Shown piece after piece: positions 25,004-30,239 of a stretch of 64,000 bases of DNA. The stretch's first letter is position 1; every line of letters begins with the position of its first letter. Under the pieces are notes generated by a model. That model searched no databases. It was not told the DNA's origin and saw nothing but the letters and a program-made list of their open reading frames with translations. This DNA comes from an uncultured Poribacteria bacterium (GTDB taxonomy: Bacteria; Poribacteria; WGA-4E; WGA-3G), in NCBI GenBank assembly GCA_951812525.1, contig OX638316.1, positions 2,080,630 to 2,144,629 of the forward strand, read 5' to 3'. A program made the position numbers and the translations under genes.

Positions 25004-25095
25004 AGAAGAACAGAAATTTTCTGGACATGCAATCAAGTCTATGCTATTCTGAGAGCTACAGAATTTCATAAAGATTAGATAACAGAGGAGACACG

Positions 25096-26652
25096 ATGGC
25101 TACAGAAGACTACACTTCGCTTGTACCGCATTATACATTCGCGGAGACACTGGAAGAGCAAGAGGCACAGTTGGAAACAAATCCGCTGATGCAACGGCTC
25201 AACGCTGCGCGGAAAGCATACGAAGGCGATCCGCATCGTCCAATCTACCACTATATTAACCCTGAAGCGATGCTCAACGATCCGAACGGTCTCTGTTTTT
25301 GGCAGGGACGCTGGCATCTCTTCTATCAGGCATATCCACCCGAAGATACACGGCAGCACTGGGGACACGCTATCAGTGATGATCTGATTCATTGGCGCGA
25401 CCTGCCTTATGCGATCTATCCGAACCCTGAAAGATGTTGTTTCTCCGGTGCAGCACTTGTGGAGGAAGATCGCGTGATTGCGATGTACCATGGAACGGTT
25501 GTCGGTAACATGGTGGCAGTATCAAGCGATCCACTTCTTCTGAATTGGGAGAAGGTCTCCGGCAAGGCGGTGATTCCAGCGAAACATGCGGATGGCACAA
25601 CACCGGTTTATCGCGTTTTTGATCCGTGTATCTGGAAAAAAGATGGTCTGTACTACTCGCTTTCAGGTGGTACGCTTCCGCACGGACCTGGTGGCAAACG
25701 TATCCGCGCTAACTTCTTGCTCCGCTCGGCGGACCTCGCGAACTGGGTCTATCTGCATCCGTTCATTGAAGATGACCAGTTCACGTTAGTCGGCGATGAT
25801 GGTGCCTGTCCGTATTTTTGGCCCATTGGTGACCGACACATGCTTCTCTTCTTCAGCCACATGAGCGGTGGGCAGTATCTGCTCGGTGATTATGACACAG
25901 AACGCGACAAGTTCGTCGTGACAGCGGGTGCAAAGAACAATTTCGGGGCGGCATCTCCTGCGGGTGTCCACGCGCCCTCAGCAACGCCTGATGGCAAGGG
26001 TGGACTCATCGTTATCTATAACATGAATCCTGCCAAGCCTACCAAAGGCTGGAATCAGATTATGACCCTGCCGCGTCGGTTGACACTCCTCTCCAGAGAC
26101 GAAGTCGGTGTTGAACCTGCGGGTGATATTGAATCGTTGCGTTATGCACATCAGCGTGTTAACGCGATGACCCTCCCCGCAAACGAAGAAGTCGTGCTGA
26201 AGGGTATAGCAGGCAATGCGATGGAGCTTGAACTCGAAATTGATCCCAAGTCGGCACCGATGGTTGAACTGAACGTTCTCCGTTCACCGCAGAAAGAGGA
26301 GTTCACGCGTATCGCCTTCTTCAGAGAACGAGGTATGCGCAACCCGGATATACCCGATCGCGTTCGCGACAGCCTCCTTACGATTGATTCGTCGTATTCG
26401 TCGATTGCACCAGATGTCCTTTCACGCGCACCCGAAACCGGGGCGATCTCTATTGCACAAGACGAAACCCTTAAATTACGGGTGTTCGTTGATAAAAGCG
26501 TTGTAGAGGTCTTTGCCAACGGGAAACAGTGCGTCGCGATGCGTGTCTATCCTGACAGGGAAGATAGCGTTGGTGTGTCGTTGCGTTCACAAGGACAAGC
26601 CTGCGAACTCAAATCTTTAGATGCTTGGCAGATGCAGAATATCTATGCATAG
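25096..26652 (+). CDS. GH32-like beta-fructosidase-family protein (copy 1)
   Basis: The 518-residue protein has the five-bladed GH32 propeller and the C-terminal beta-sandwich (about 360-518, ending RVFVDKSVVEVFANGKQC). The nucleophile motif N61-D-P-N-G65 and the transition-state Asp176 (VFDP) are intact. The acid/base Glu of the usual E-C-P motif is not: the segment reads DDGACP, with Ala237. Family members hydrolyse terminal fructose from sucrose, levan or inulin; this one may be a weak or altered enzyme. No signal peptide is present. A start-proximal GGAG supports the ATG. It overlaps the next gene by 8 bases. Confidence 0.85.
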   Translation: MATEDYTSLVPHYTFAETLEEQEAQLETNPLMQRLNAARKAYEGDPHRPIYHYINPEAMLNDPNGLCFWQGRWHLFYQAYPPEDTRQHWGHAISDDLIHWRDLPYAIYPNPERCCFSGAALVEEDRVIAMYHGTVVGNMVAVSSDPLLLNWEKVSGKAVIPAKHADGTTPVYRVFDPCIWKKDGLYYSLSGGTLPHGPGGKRIRANFLLRSADLANWVYLHPFIEDDQFTLVGDDGACPYFWPIGDRHMLLFFSHMSGGQYLLGDYDTERDKFVVTAGAKNNFGAASPAGVHAPSATPDGKGGLIVIYNMNPAKPTKGWNQIMTLPRRLTLLSRDEVGVEPAGDIESLRYAHQRVNAMTLPANEEVVLKGIAGNAMELELEIDPKSAPMVELNVLRSPQKEEFTRIAFFRERGMRNPDIPDRVRDSLLTIDSSYSSIAPDVLSRAPETGAISIAQDETLKLRVFVDKSVVEVFANGKQCVAMRVYPDREDSVGVSLRSQGQACELKSLDAWQMQNIYA

Positions 26653-27343
26653 CAGCGGAATGCCGAGCACTTCCATCCAATACGCAGCGGACCTTAATAA
26701 TGTTAAAGAGGTCACACTGCACGGCACAGCGGATTTATCGTTTTGGGAATCGGTGCTGCACAAGGAGAATCTTTCTCCGTACCACGAAGCGGGTAAGGCA
26801 GTCTTATTACTCAGCGCGATAGATGCAAAATGGCGGGGATTCAAATTTAGGGAGTTTGTTATCGCTGTTGGGGTTTGCCTTAATGAAAATCAAACAAGCT
26901 TGGATGGATATTATTTGCCACACGCATTTAACTCGTCCAGGCTCTTGGCTTTTTCGGAACGGGTGTTTTTCCAAACCCCTTATGTTCAAGGCGACATCCA
27001 GCTCGTAAGCAGACTCCCAGCTTCTATTAAGTTGCGGAATAGAACAAAAGTTCTTCTCCACGCCGAGATGTTTACGCCTAATACATCGCCGACAGTGGAG
27101 TATTTGGAGTGGCAGGGACCTATCTTTCTTCCAAATAACGGCGGTAAATTCTTTGCTATACTTTCAGGTGAAGCGGAAATATATCCGTTTTCACCTGTAA
27201 CAGACAGTTTTGAAATCGAACCGTCAGGGCGTCACCCAATTTTTCAGCAACTTATCGAAAGCAATTTTGCCTGCAGCGTATGGAGTCTAAGAAGCAGCTC
27301 GCGTCATGCAAAATCAAAGACTTACAAACGCGATTTTGAGTAA
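26645..27343 (+). CDS. Unknown protein between two GH32-like genes
   Basis: I do not recognise this 232-residue protein. It overlaps the stop of the first GH32-like gene and ends 13 bases before the second, so it is clearly part of that operon. The protein has no signal peptide or membrane segment. It alternates beta-type segments (GKAVLLLSAIDAKWRGFKF, EFVIAVGVCL) with a conserved-looking DGYYLPHAFNSSRLLAFSERVFF region, somewhat reminiscent of acetoacetate-decarboxylase-like barrels, but I would not name it so. The start could also be the ATG five codons later. A sugar- or acid-processing partner of the GH32-like proteins is a guess from context only. Confidence 0.6.
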   Translation: MHSSGMPSTSIQYAADLNNVKEVTLHGTADLSFWESVLHKENLSPYHEAGKAVLLLSAIDAKWRGFKFREFVIAVGVCLNENQTSLDGYYLPHAFNSSRLLAFSERVFFQTPYVQGDIQLVSRLPASIKLRNRTKVLLHAEMFTPNTSPTVEYLEWQGPIFLPNNGGKFFAILSGEAEIYPFSPVTDSFEIEPSGRHPIFQQLIESNFACSVWSLRSSSRHAKSKTYKRDFE

Positions 27344-27356
27344 GAGGAAATCCGAT

Positions 27357-28979
27357 ATGGCAGATACGTGGGAAGAACTCCGAGGCAAGACCTATCCTGA
27401 TACGGAGACGAAACAGTTCGCTGCGCTTGAGATGGATGAGACGGTGCGTGACTACAAGCAACGTAGAGAGGCGTGGGCATCAGATTCCTACCGTCCTATT
27501 TATCACATGTCTTCCCTCTACGGTATGGGTGATGCGAACGGGCTTTGCGAGTGGCAGGGTAGGTATCATTTGTTTTATCAATTCGGTCCTCCAGACGTTA
27601 ATCGGGTTCACTGGGGACACTGCTATAGCGAGGATCTGGTGCATTGGCATGATTTACCACCGGCATTGTATCCAGATACCGAACTACACTGTTTCAGTGG
27701 ACAGTGTCTCGTGGAAGATGATCGGGTTGTCGCTATCTATCACGGCAAAATGTCCGGGAATAGTATCGCTACTGCGAACGATCCGCTCCTACTCAACTGG
27801 AAAAAGCATCCCAATAATCCAGTCATTCCCAATGTCGAGACCAATGCATACGAGCAGCCCTATAACGTATTTGATCCGTGTATCTGGAAGGAGGAGGACG
27901 GGTATTATTCGATTTCGGGTACATCCGCTAACGGTTGGATCCGCGAGCGACGTAGGTCAGCCTCGCATCTGTTCTATTCAAAAGATTTAACACATTGGGA
28001 ATATCTCCATCCGTTACTGATTGATGATGTTTTCTGCGACCTCGGTGAAGATGGTGCGGTGCCGAATTTCTTGCCTATCGGAAACGGTAAGCATATCTTG
28101 CTACTCTTTAGTCATAAACGTTCAGCGCGTTACTACATCGGCGAATATGACCAAGGGACACACAAATTTACGCCTGAATATCACGGTAGAATCAACCACG
28201 GCACCTTCGGGGGTGGGATGGTCTCCTGTCCCTCTGCGACGATAGATTCCCGGGGTCGCTTCATCTCCATCTTAAACTGTTCGGATGGAAGGCAGGGTGC
28301 AGAAGCAGCATCGGGTTTATGCATGACACTCCCGTGGCATCTCACTCTGAAAGAAGACAATGCCTTGGCTATAGAACCGGTCGAAGAAGTGAAAAGTCTG
28401 CGAAACACGCACACCCGGTTCTCTGATATTACCCTATCAGCGAACGAAGAGCGGCTTCTTGATGGTGTGGCGGGCAAAGCGATTGAGATAGAGCTGACCG
28501 TGGAGATGGGGACAGCACGGGAAGTCGGTTTATATGTGTTCCGTTCGCCGAGTGGAAACGAACGGACAAAAATCTCCATCTACAACCACAGACACGGTAA
28601 AACGAACGATAGCCTGCAGGTTGACACCTCCTATTCCTCGCTGCGTACAGACCTGGTCGGCAAACCGCCTGAGAGTGCGCCGTTCCGTCTGAGCAGTGAT
28701 GGTAAAGCGCACCTCCGTATCTTCCTTGACCGGAGCCTCATTGAAATCTTTGCCGACAACGGAGAATGTCTGCCCGAATGGGCGTTTCCACGGAAAGGTA
28801 TCGACAAACTATTCCCCTTGTTCTCTCGGCAATGCGCTGTTGCGCGTGTCTATCCGCTGCAAGAGGAGAGTAACGGTATTTCGCTTTTCGCAATCGGTGG
28901 AGAGGCGAAGATTGTTTCTATGAACGTGTGGCAGATGCGCTCCATCTGGGAAGAGTTGAAGTATCGGGAAGGGGAATAG
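27357..28979 (+). CDS. GH32-like beta-fructosidase-family protein (copy 2)
   Basis: This 540-residue paralogue of the gene at 25096 keeps the fold order and many blocks (GRYHLFYQFGPPDVNRVHWGH, CFSGQCLVEDDRVVAIYHG, NVFDPCIWKEEDGYYSISG). The nucleophile motif is altered to GDANG (Asp kept, Pro replaced by Ala), and the acid/base segment reads EDGAVPNF, again lacking Glu. A C-terminal beta-sandwich ends with RIFLDRSLIEIFADNGECL. It has no signal peptide. The ATG of MADTWEEL has a GAGGAA site. Both copies differ from true invertases at the same catalytic residue, so the pair may share a changed chemistry or have a binding role. Confidence 0.83.
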   Translation: MADTWEELRGKTYPDTETKQFAALEMDETVRDYKQRREAWASDSYRPIYHMSSLYGMGDANGLCEWQGRYHLFYQFGPPDVNRVHWGHCYSEDLVHWHDLPPALYPDTELHCFSGQCLVEDDRVVAIYHGKMSGNSIATANDPLLLNWKKHPNNPVIPNVETNAYEQPYNVFDPCIWKEEDGYYSISGTSANGWIRERRRSASHLFYSKDLTHWEYLHPLLIDDVFCDLGEDGAVPNFLPIGNGKHILLLFSHKRSARYYIGEYDQGTHKFTPEYHGRINHGTFGGGMVSCPSATIDSRGRFISILNCSDGRQGAEAASGLCMTLPWHLTLKEDNALAIEPVEEVKSLRNTHTRFSDITLSANEERLLDGVAGKAIEIELTVEMGTAREVGLYVFRSPSGNERTKISIYNHRHGKTNDSLQVDTSYSSLRTDLVGKPPESAPFRLSSDGKAHLRIFLDRSLIEIFADNGECLPEWAFPRKGIDKLFPLFSRQCAVARVYPLQEESNGISLFAIGGEAKIVSMNVWQMRSIWEELKYREGE

Positions 28980-29003: not shown

Positions 29004-30239
29004 ATGTTTTATCTAACTGCTGTTCTTATTATCTGTGTGCTGTTTCTTTCAACCCAATTAACTACGACAGCACAGCGTGTCAGCATCCGTGAGCCTGTAC
29101 CTCCACCTGTTACCGTTCAGGAAACTTTTGATTTAGACCCGTTTTACGAACAGTGGATCGATGTAGATGGATTGCCTGTTGTGGCATCAGCCAAGGTGAG
29201 CCCTTATGCGGTGAAGGAGGCGGCATGGCTTATTCGGCAGATGCTTGGGCATCGTCAAGATATATTGCAGGCACTTGCAGAAAACAGTGTGCGTTTTGCT
29301 GTGATGGCATATAGTGAGCTGACAACAGATATTCCTGAGCATAGCGATCTGAAACCCGATTATTATTGGGATCGACGCGCACGCGGTTTGGGTTCGACAC
29401 CAGCAAGGCCGGCGGTAAGTTGTGGTGAGGAGAACCTGCTTAATTACGCCGGTGATCCCTATTCAACTGAAAATATTCTGGTTCACGAATTCGCGCATGC
29501 GATTCATCAGATGGGCTTGAATAAGGTTACCCCGAACTTTGATGATCGCCTTGAGACGACGTTCAACGCTGCGAAAGAGAACGGTTTATGGAAGGACACC
29601 TACGCTATTACGAACAGGGCGGAGTATTGGGCTGAAGGCACGCAATCTTGGTTTGACACGAATCGGGCAAACGATGACCAACATAACCATGTTGACACCC
29701 GCGACAAGTTGAAGGATTATGATCCTGAACTCGCAGCACTGCTCACCGAGGTCTATGGCGATACGGACTGGCGATACATGCAGGCGGTAACTCGGACGCA
29801 TCTCTCACATCTTCAAGGGTTCGATGCTGAAGTGTCTCCGAAGTTTGAATGGTCTCCTGAATTGATAGAGTTAACAGAGTTCTACCGGCAATTGAAAGAT
29901 CCAAATAGCGATGGTGATGGAAGATGGATAAACTTGGAGGAACAGGATCTTAATTCGCTTCCAACTTTGAAATCTGGGGACGACGATACTGAGACCGTGG
30001 TTCTCTTAGTGAACGGGACAGAAACCGAGATTGCCTCTTATTGGATAGATTATGAGGGTAAAGAGAAATCTTACGGTAGGATTGCGCCGGGTGATTTTGT
30101 CAATCATCAGACCTACGTGGGACACGTCTGGCTTATCAAAGATGTGAATAGTCGGAACCTTGCTGTGTTTCGCGCTGAGGAACAGACAGGACGGGCACTT
30201 GTTGGTGTGCGGTTTTCGGGCACACAAAATGAGAATTAA
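29004..30239 (+). CDS. Secreted zinc metallopeptidase with C-terminal VHL-beta-like domain
   Basis: The 411-residue protein begins with a signal peptide (MFYLTAVLIICVLFLSTQLTTTAQ). The catalytic domain has a zinc motif H161-E-F-A-H165 and a downstream NRAEYWAEGTQSWF (204-217) that probably supplies the third ligand. The last 80 residues (about 330-410) resemble the beta domain of the von Hippel-Lindau protein. Aligning them, the hydroxyproline-pocket residues of human VHL (Trp88, Tyr98, Ser111, His115, Trp117) correspond to Trp347, Tyr357, Thr370, His374 and Trp376. Thus four of five are identical and one is conservative. The gene follows the GH32-like operon by 24 bases. Substrate unknown; hydroxyproline-rich matrix proteins are an attractive guess. 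Confidence 0.8.
   Translation: MFYLTAVLIICVLFLSTQLTTTAQRVSIREPVPPPVTVQETFDLDPFYEQWIDVDGLPVVASAKVSPYAVKEAAWLIRQMLGHRQDILQALAENSVRFAVMAYSELTTDIPEHSDLKPDYYWDRRARGLGSTPARPAVSCGEENLLNYAGDPYSTENILVHEFAHAIHQMGLNKVTPNFDDRLETTFNAAKENGLWKDTYAITNRAEYWAEGTQSWFDTNRANDDQHNHVDTRDKLKDYDPELAALLTEVYGDTDWRYMQAVTRTHLSHLQGFDAEVSPKFEWSPELIELTEFYRQLKDPNSDGDGRWINLEEQDLNSLPTLKSGDDDTETVVLLVNGTETEIASYWIDYEGKEKSYGRIAPGDFVNHQTYVGHVWLIKDVNSRNLAVFRAEEQTGRALVGVRFSGTQNEN

Follow-up and report, generated by a model that had tools for sequence, protein, structure and literature searches.

Introduction

The gene at positions 29004-30239 of the window, by which we mean the whole 64,000-nucleotide stretch of DNA that was analysed, raises the question of what a domain related to human VHL does on a bacterial peptidase. 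The human VHL pocket binds the hydroxylated proline of HIF-alpha; its reading of hydroxyproline is familiar from the oxygen sensing of animals, and drug discovery exploits the pocket to bring proteins to degradation. Bacterial VHL domains are already in Pfam, and the Pro-Pro endopeptidases (PPEPs), the fold of which is found in the catalytic part, are well known. In open-access papers we found no report on bacterial VHL-peptidase fusions or on conservation of the pocket across bacterial peptidases, and pocket-keeping VHL fusions to proline-directed peptidases seem to be unreported. A bacterial extracellular VHL, the secreted VHL-domain protein of Litorilituus sediminis, was described in 2022, but it was read as linked to tumour suppression, and the passages on it do not treat a peptidase fusion (PMC9002001). 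We propose, with a probability of roughly 0.55, that the 411-aa protein is a secreted PPEP-fold endopeptidase in which polypeptides rich in hydroxyproline (or proline) dock onto the VHL domain.

A VHL Beta Domain at the C-Terminus

The 411-aa ORF has an ATG start and its stop codon inside the interval, as given by the ORF list and the translation, and its features are collected in Table 1. An AlphaFold2 model built from 53 aligned homologs has a mean pLDDT of 86, with values of about 86-96 across most of the VHL part; a single-sequence model of the isolated VHL domain (pLDDT 38.6) was set aside. Read by eye, the N-terminus has no lipobox cysteine and no clear positive charge at its start, and the model places a helix of low confidence at residues 2-20. 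From the signal-peptide-like character of this region we infer that the peptidase is probably secreted.

Table 1. Features of the 411-aa protein and its gene; positions are those of the window.
Feature	Residues	Positions	Strand	Remarks
Whole gene		29004..30239	+	411-aa ORF; PPEP-fold zinc peptidase, probably secreted, that ends in a VHL beta domain
Signal-peptide-like N-terminus	1-24	29004..29075	+	Hydrophobic stretch, then TTTAQ, by sequence reading
Catalytic domain	29-253	29088..29762	+	PPEP / lethal-factor-type gluzincin fold, by VIA-align
HEFAH zinc motif	161-165	29484..29498	+	Conserved in 53 homologs
Y200 and third zinc ligand E207	200, 207	29601..29624	+	Spacing as in PPEP-1 Tyr178/Glu185
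VHL beta domain	320-401	29961..30206	+	Seven strands; Pfam, PDB phmmer, Foldseek, VIA-align
W347 = human Trp88	347	30042..30044	+	38/38 same-type Poribacteria; 57/57 outside Poribacteria
Y357 = human Tyr98	357	30072..30074	+	37/38 same-type Poribacteria; 57/57 outside Poribacteria
T370 = human Ser111	370	30111..30113	+	Thr/Ser in 38/38 same-type Poribacteria
H374 = human His115, W376 = human Trp117	374, 376	30123..30131	+	38/38 each, same-type Poribacteria

The initial annotation, which was made from the letters alone, had proposed a VHL-beta-like domain at the C-terminus, and this part of the protein is now confirmed as a VHL beta domain by homology of both sequence and fold. Pfam VHL (PF01847) matches residues 330-385 at 35.5 bits against a curated gathering cut-off of 21, and a phmmer search of PDB sequences pairs residues 320-385 with human VHL in an alignment free of gaps (E about 2e-5, with a range of 2-5e-5). 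A structural search with the AlphaFold2 model bore this out: residues 320-401 match pVHL with a Foldseek E of about 3e-7 and a VIA-align Z of 11.2 (rmsd 1.4 A over 82 residues), the seven-stranded beta sandwich of residues 330-400 superposes on pVHL, and the matched entries include complexes with a hydroxylated HIF peptide and with capped hydroxyproline. The bacterial protein differs from pVHL in being of extracellular type and fused to a peptidase, and it lacks the alpha domain: the chain runs on for only about 10 residues past the beta domain and the match to human VHL stops with that domain, so that the protein has no elongin-C binding region.

The Pocket Residues Lie in the Human Register

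The hydroxyproline site of human VHL consists of Trp88, Tyr98, His110, Ser111, His115 and Trp117, of which Ser111 and His115 bond the hydroxyproline hydroxyl and Tyr98 bonds the hydroxyproline carbonyl through its OH (PMC9528729). These six positions read W, Y, Q, T, H and W in the 411-aa protein. Five of them had been paired initially at identical spacing from Trp88 to Trp117, and the pairing holds in a gapless register of +259 from human to bacterial numbering (Table 1), with four residues identical and one changed from Ser to Thr; N78=N337, Y112=Y371, G114=G373 and D121=D380 match as well. The position of human H110 is occupied by Q369 and is His in 28 of the 38 same-type sequences from Poribacteria, 37 of which keep all five pocket residues. 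The five residues would form a hydroxyproline-binding pocket in the 411-aa protein, with a geometry that rests on the backbone fit and the alignment register. The subsites that flank the site in human VHL are changed (N67 to D326, R69 to D328, P99 to G358, R107 to V366 and I109 to H368), and since they are not kept, the peptide context must differ from that of HIF.

The Catalytic Domain Has a PPEP Fold

The VHL domain had been seen as fused to a secreted HEFAH peptidase. Fusion to a peptidase with a signal-peptide-like N-terminus is supported, and the fold of the catalytic part can be added. By VIA-align, residues 29-253 match PPEP-3 9g5j (Z 14.8, rmsd 3.5 A over 188 residues), PPEP-2 6fpc (Z 14.6) and PPEP-1 5a0p (Z 13.6), with anthrax lethal factor next after the PPEPs at a Z of about 12. 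Pfam ATLF (PF07737; 21 bits against a cut-off of 27.4) is below threshold, for which reason only likeness of fold is claimed, and M90 is likewise below threshold (20.2 bits against 26.2). The HExxH motif is present, as are the oxyanion Tyr and, seven residues further on, the zinc Glu (H161, E162, H165, Y200 and E207): H161 and H165 are invariant and E162 is nearly so in the 53 homologs, and E207 is found in all, and Y200 in all but two, of 62 aligned homologs. The protein is a predicted zinc enzyme.

Known PPEPs are secreted and cleave the bond between neighbouring prolines (PMC12828418), and by analogy the catalytic domain may carry out proline-directed cleavage; having a Pro-Pro endopeptidase fold, it would fit a proline-rich substrate. 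With PPEP-1/Zmp1, PPEP-2 and PPEP-3 it shares the fold (Z 13 to 15), HExxH, the Tyr/Glu spacing and probable secretion. It differs from them in an identity of only about 20%, in the added linker and VHL domain, and in reading A206-E207 at the tandem Glu184,185 of PPEP-1, such that Ala206 is the equivalent of Glu184. The classical collagenase family M9 is represented in the same genome only by a match below threshold, at another locus. The catalytic domain also has a relative that lacks VHL (34% identity, residues 41-300), encoded at 328267-329181 of Rhizobium etli CFN 42 plasmid p42d (L260), where it is RHE_RS30980, annotated as hypothetical and situated between nodA and nodD2 on the symbiosis plasmid; matches come from 51 Rhizobium plasmid records.

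Conservation and Loss of the Pocket in Poribacteria

The relatives are Candidatus Poribacteria, a group described as sponge symbionts of wide distribution (PMC8546597). A relative is encoded in 59 of the 85 genomes of the phylum and a Pfam-level VHL domain in 40 of the 85. Full-length homologs are present in most genomes of the genus, mostly 70-85% identical among its species over the full length, and several neighbouring gene products exceed 90%. Two GH32 genes and a 240-aa ORF precede the peptidase gene, and NUDIX, Gfo/Idh and PhyH come after it, an order that the genus largely preserves and that a sister genus preserves in part. The two GH32 genes lie close together (window positions 25090-28979) and are conserved mostly at about 90% or more, the peptidase being less conserved, and the 240-aa ORF between them (26621-27343) has no Pfam match and is syntenic across the genus.

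The C-terminus has been lost in four species of the genus (L080, L093, L094 and L095), in which the peptidase stops near residue 290 and is followed by NUDIX, with no VHL remnant found downstream of the syntenic gene in any of the four. As these species keep the peptidase without VHL, docking would be dispensable. The genome of the 411-aa protein also encodes a second, larger copy (50% identity, headed by WD40-like repeats as judged by eye), the VHL-like part of which has no pocket. In a tree built from the catalytic domain alone, covering Poribacteria and Planctomycetota relatives, the full pocket is found in the type of the 411-aa protein, in a sister-genus set and in 8 of 9 Planctomycetota relatives; Tyr98 is replaced, mostly by Arg, in one sister-genus Poribacteria clade; and a clade of larger paralogs has largely lost the pocket, with HExxH kept in 10 of its 11 members and Glu207 in all. 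The pocket can therefore be lost without loss of the enzyme. One Planctomycetota sequence (L203) falls among the larger paralogs on a very long branch and its placement is unsure. Based on this distribution the pocket is likely to be ancestral.

The persistence of pocket-less modules in the larger paralogs, and the four species that manage without the module, would be expected if VHL capped the peptidase in a structural or regulatory role and had no external ligand. We consider this very improbable, as it leaves unexplained a pocket that is near-invariant across phyla and that is also present on a second, unrelated peptidase fold.

A separate 940-aa protein (L083) combines LRR-like, VHL and YWTD-like repeat regions and keeps Trp88, Tyr98, His115 and Trp117, with Ala for Ser111.

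VHL Domains on Peptidases of Other Bacteria

A VHL-profile scan of 84,980 species genomes retained 80 loci, of which 57 lie outside Poribacteria. S9/DPP IV-type peptidases account for at least 49 of the 57 (44 by motif, 5 by Pfam), a count that leans to S9 since two of the three seeds were S9 domains, and in which the class of some rows was set by motif or by N-terminal likeness; truncated sequences are among the remainder. Trp88 and Tyr98, both of which lie outside the search patterns, occur in 57 of 57, and the HTYxGHxW motif was fixed by the search pattern, so that its conservation in these loci proves nothing. The search patterns used found no VHL relatives in viral contigs. Three S9 proteins with VHL that resemble those of uncultured Verrucomicrobia come from records titled Klebsiella pneumoniae or Akkermansia muciniphila (L161, L163 and L176), bin names that look doubtful.

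Sampling with the Pfam HMM, which is less biased than the profile scan yet favours conserved residues, found VHL in 42 of 294 and 18 of 241 genomes of two phyla, centred on Planctomycetota and Verrucomicrobia records. All five pocket residues are present in 49 of the 57 domains sampled, and the six best-conserved columns are the five pocket residues plus Asn78 (hypergeometric p 7e-7, an optimistic value because the sampling profile itself weights conserved columns). Among peptidase fusions sampled by HMM, His115 is present in 55 of 56. S9 (DPP IV-type) peptidases keep the five residues in Planctomycetota, Verrucomicrobia and other groups, and bacterial VHL domains that are fused to peptidases have the pocket as their general state.

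Bacterial VHL thus sits on two unrelated peptidase folds, PPEP-like and S9/DPP IV, both tied to proline by family. The S9 proteins, from Planctomycetota, Verrucomicrobia, Chthonomonas/Abditibacteriaceae-type genomes and some Poribacteria, likewise join a peptidase to a VHL domain with the same pocket set, but they are serine peptidases with a beta-propeller and carry VHL before the propeller rather than at the C-terminus. The PPEP-like proteins of Planctomycetota (L195, L196, L204, L214, L239, L240 and others) have the same architecture as the 411-aa protein and mostly keep the pocket, with 42-47% identity to it for L195, L196, L204, L212 and L214; they differ in phylum and in not keeping the His110 equivalent.

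PPEP enzymes are known for proline, not hydroxyproline, and S9 enzymes likewise for proline rather than hydroxyproline. The VHL module might then bind proline-rich or other peptides regardless of hydroxylation, its aromatics being a proline or turn site or part of the fold core, and the Trp/Tyr/Trp set and Thr do mostly stay where His115 is replaced by Ala or Asn. We regard this as rather unlikely. Binding that is blind to hydroxylation is at odds with the retention, in nearly all peptidase fusions, of His115 and Ser/Thr111, the residues that bond the hydroxyl in human VHL; a role in the fold core is at odds with the larger paralogs, which lose cage residues yet align over the whole VHL domain, so that the fold does not depend on the cage.

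VHL Domains on Glycan-Related Enzymes

Besides S9 and PPEP-like peptidases, VHL occurs on sulfatases, sialate-type esterases, a GH127 fragment, LRR proteins, one kinase and small proteins that contain little more than the domain, and the sulfatases, esterases, GH127 fragment and LRR proteins mean that the fold is not tied to peptidases. The kinase (L256, 2933-4579 on the minus strand) has MORN repeats and a C-terminal VHL domain that keeps His115. In Planctomycetota-type genomes the modules on glycan-acting enzymes (sulfatases L187, L246, L248, L249, L251 and L258; sialate-type esterases and LRR proteins L242, L247, L252 and L254; GH127 L211) retain the aromatic cage and Thr, and in most of them Ala or Asn stands in place of His115. 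The difference between peptidase fusions that keep His115 and glycan-enzyme fusions that lose it is pronounced (Fisher p 4e-11), but the tree gives a single loss, which counts as one event and not as independent support.

These hosts, together with the position of the peptidase gene downstream of two GH32 genes, could indicate that the VHL module binds a glycan or glycosylated protein, much as a carbohydrate-binding module (CBM) would, and that the peptidase acts on glycoproteins. This seems improbable to us in that the modules on glycan enzymes are mostly without His115 and form one branch, whereas the module of the 411-aa protein is of the His-keeping type. The GH127 family includes enzymes that act on arabinosides of hydroxyproline-rich glycoproteins (PMC6085000, PMC10850190), and the link that GH127-VHL makes to such glycoproteins is only suggestive because that VHL copy has Asn for His115.

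Proposed Mechanism and Possible Targets

The identity of the domain, its fold and register, the conservation of its residues and the repeated pairing of VHL with peptidases come directly from the computations, and from them we infer that the two parts of the protein probably cooperate. For the docking endopeptidase proposed here, the cage of Trp, Tyr and Trp, together with Thr370 and His374, would hold the ring of a hydroxyproline (possibly a proline) in an extended chain. Docking by VHL would then present nearby proline-rich segments of the same polypeptide to the PPEP-type active site, where the zinc gluzincin part (HEFAH, Tyr200 and Glu207) probably cuts proline-rich polypeptides.

The initial annotation had seen the hydroxyproline-rich collagen of a sponge host as the obvious target. 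A special adaptation to sponge collagen finds no support, because pocket-bearing fusions occur in other phyla, PPEP-like in Planctomycetota and S9 in many bacteria, and some of the records outside Poribacteria are named for lake or groundwater samples. Sponge collagen is a possible target that no evidence favours in particular, and the target may be any hydroxyproline-rich protein, such as collagen, sponge matrix or algal or plant glycoproteins. A target made by the bacterium itself was considered and rejected, as was catabolism of free hydroxyproline: no collagen-like protein and no proline/hydroxyproline racemase/epimerase of family PF05544 were found in the genome, so that neither a self-target nor racemase-route catabolism is indicated. 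The genome does encode one marginal prolyl-hydroxylase-type 2OG-FeII oxygenase (27.3 bits against a cut-off of 27).

The conserved pocket suggests that bacteria may read hydroxyproline on extracellular proteins. More tentatively, and with the odds against it, bacterial VHL domains in general could be extracellular hydroxyproline-reading modules, the protein counterpart of CBMs, carried on peptidases and on enzymes for the sugars of hydroxyproline-rich glycoproteins, with the oxygen-sensing VHL of animals a later use. If the extracellular versions in bacteria work in this way, the reading of hydroxyproline would extend beyond oxygen sensing and would give bacteria a dedicated means of locating collagen, extensins and proteins like them, and bacterial VHL domains would constitute a natural store of hydroxyproline-binding domains.
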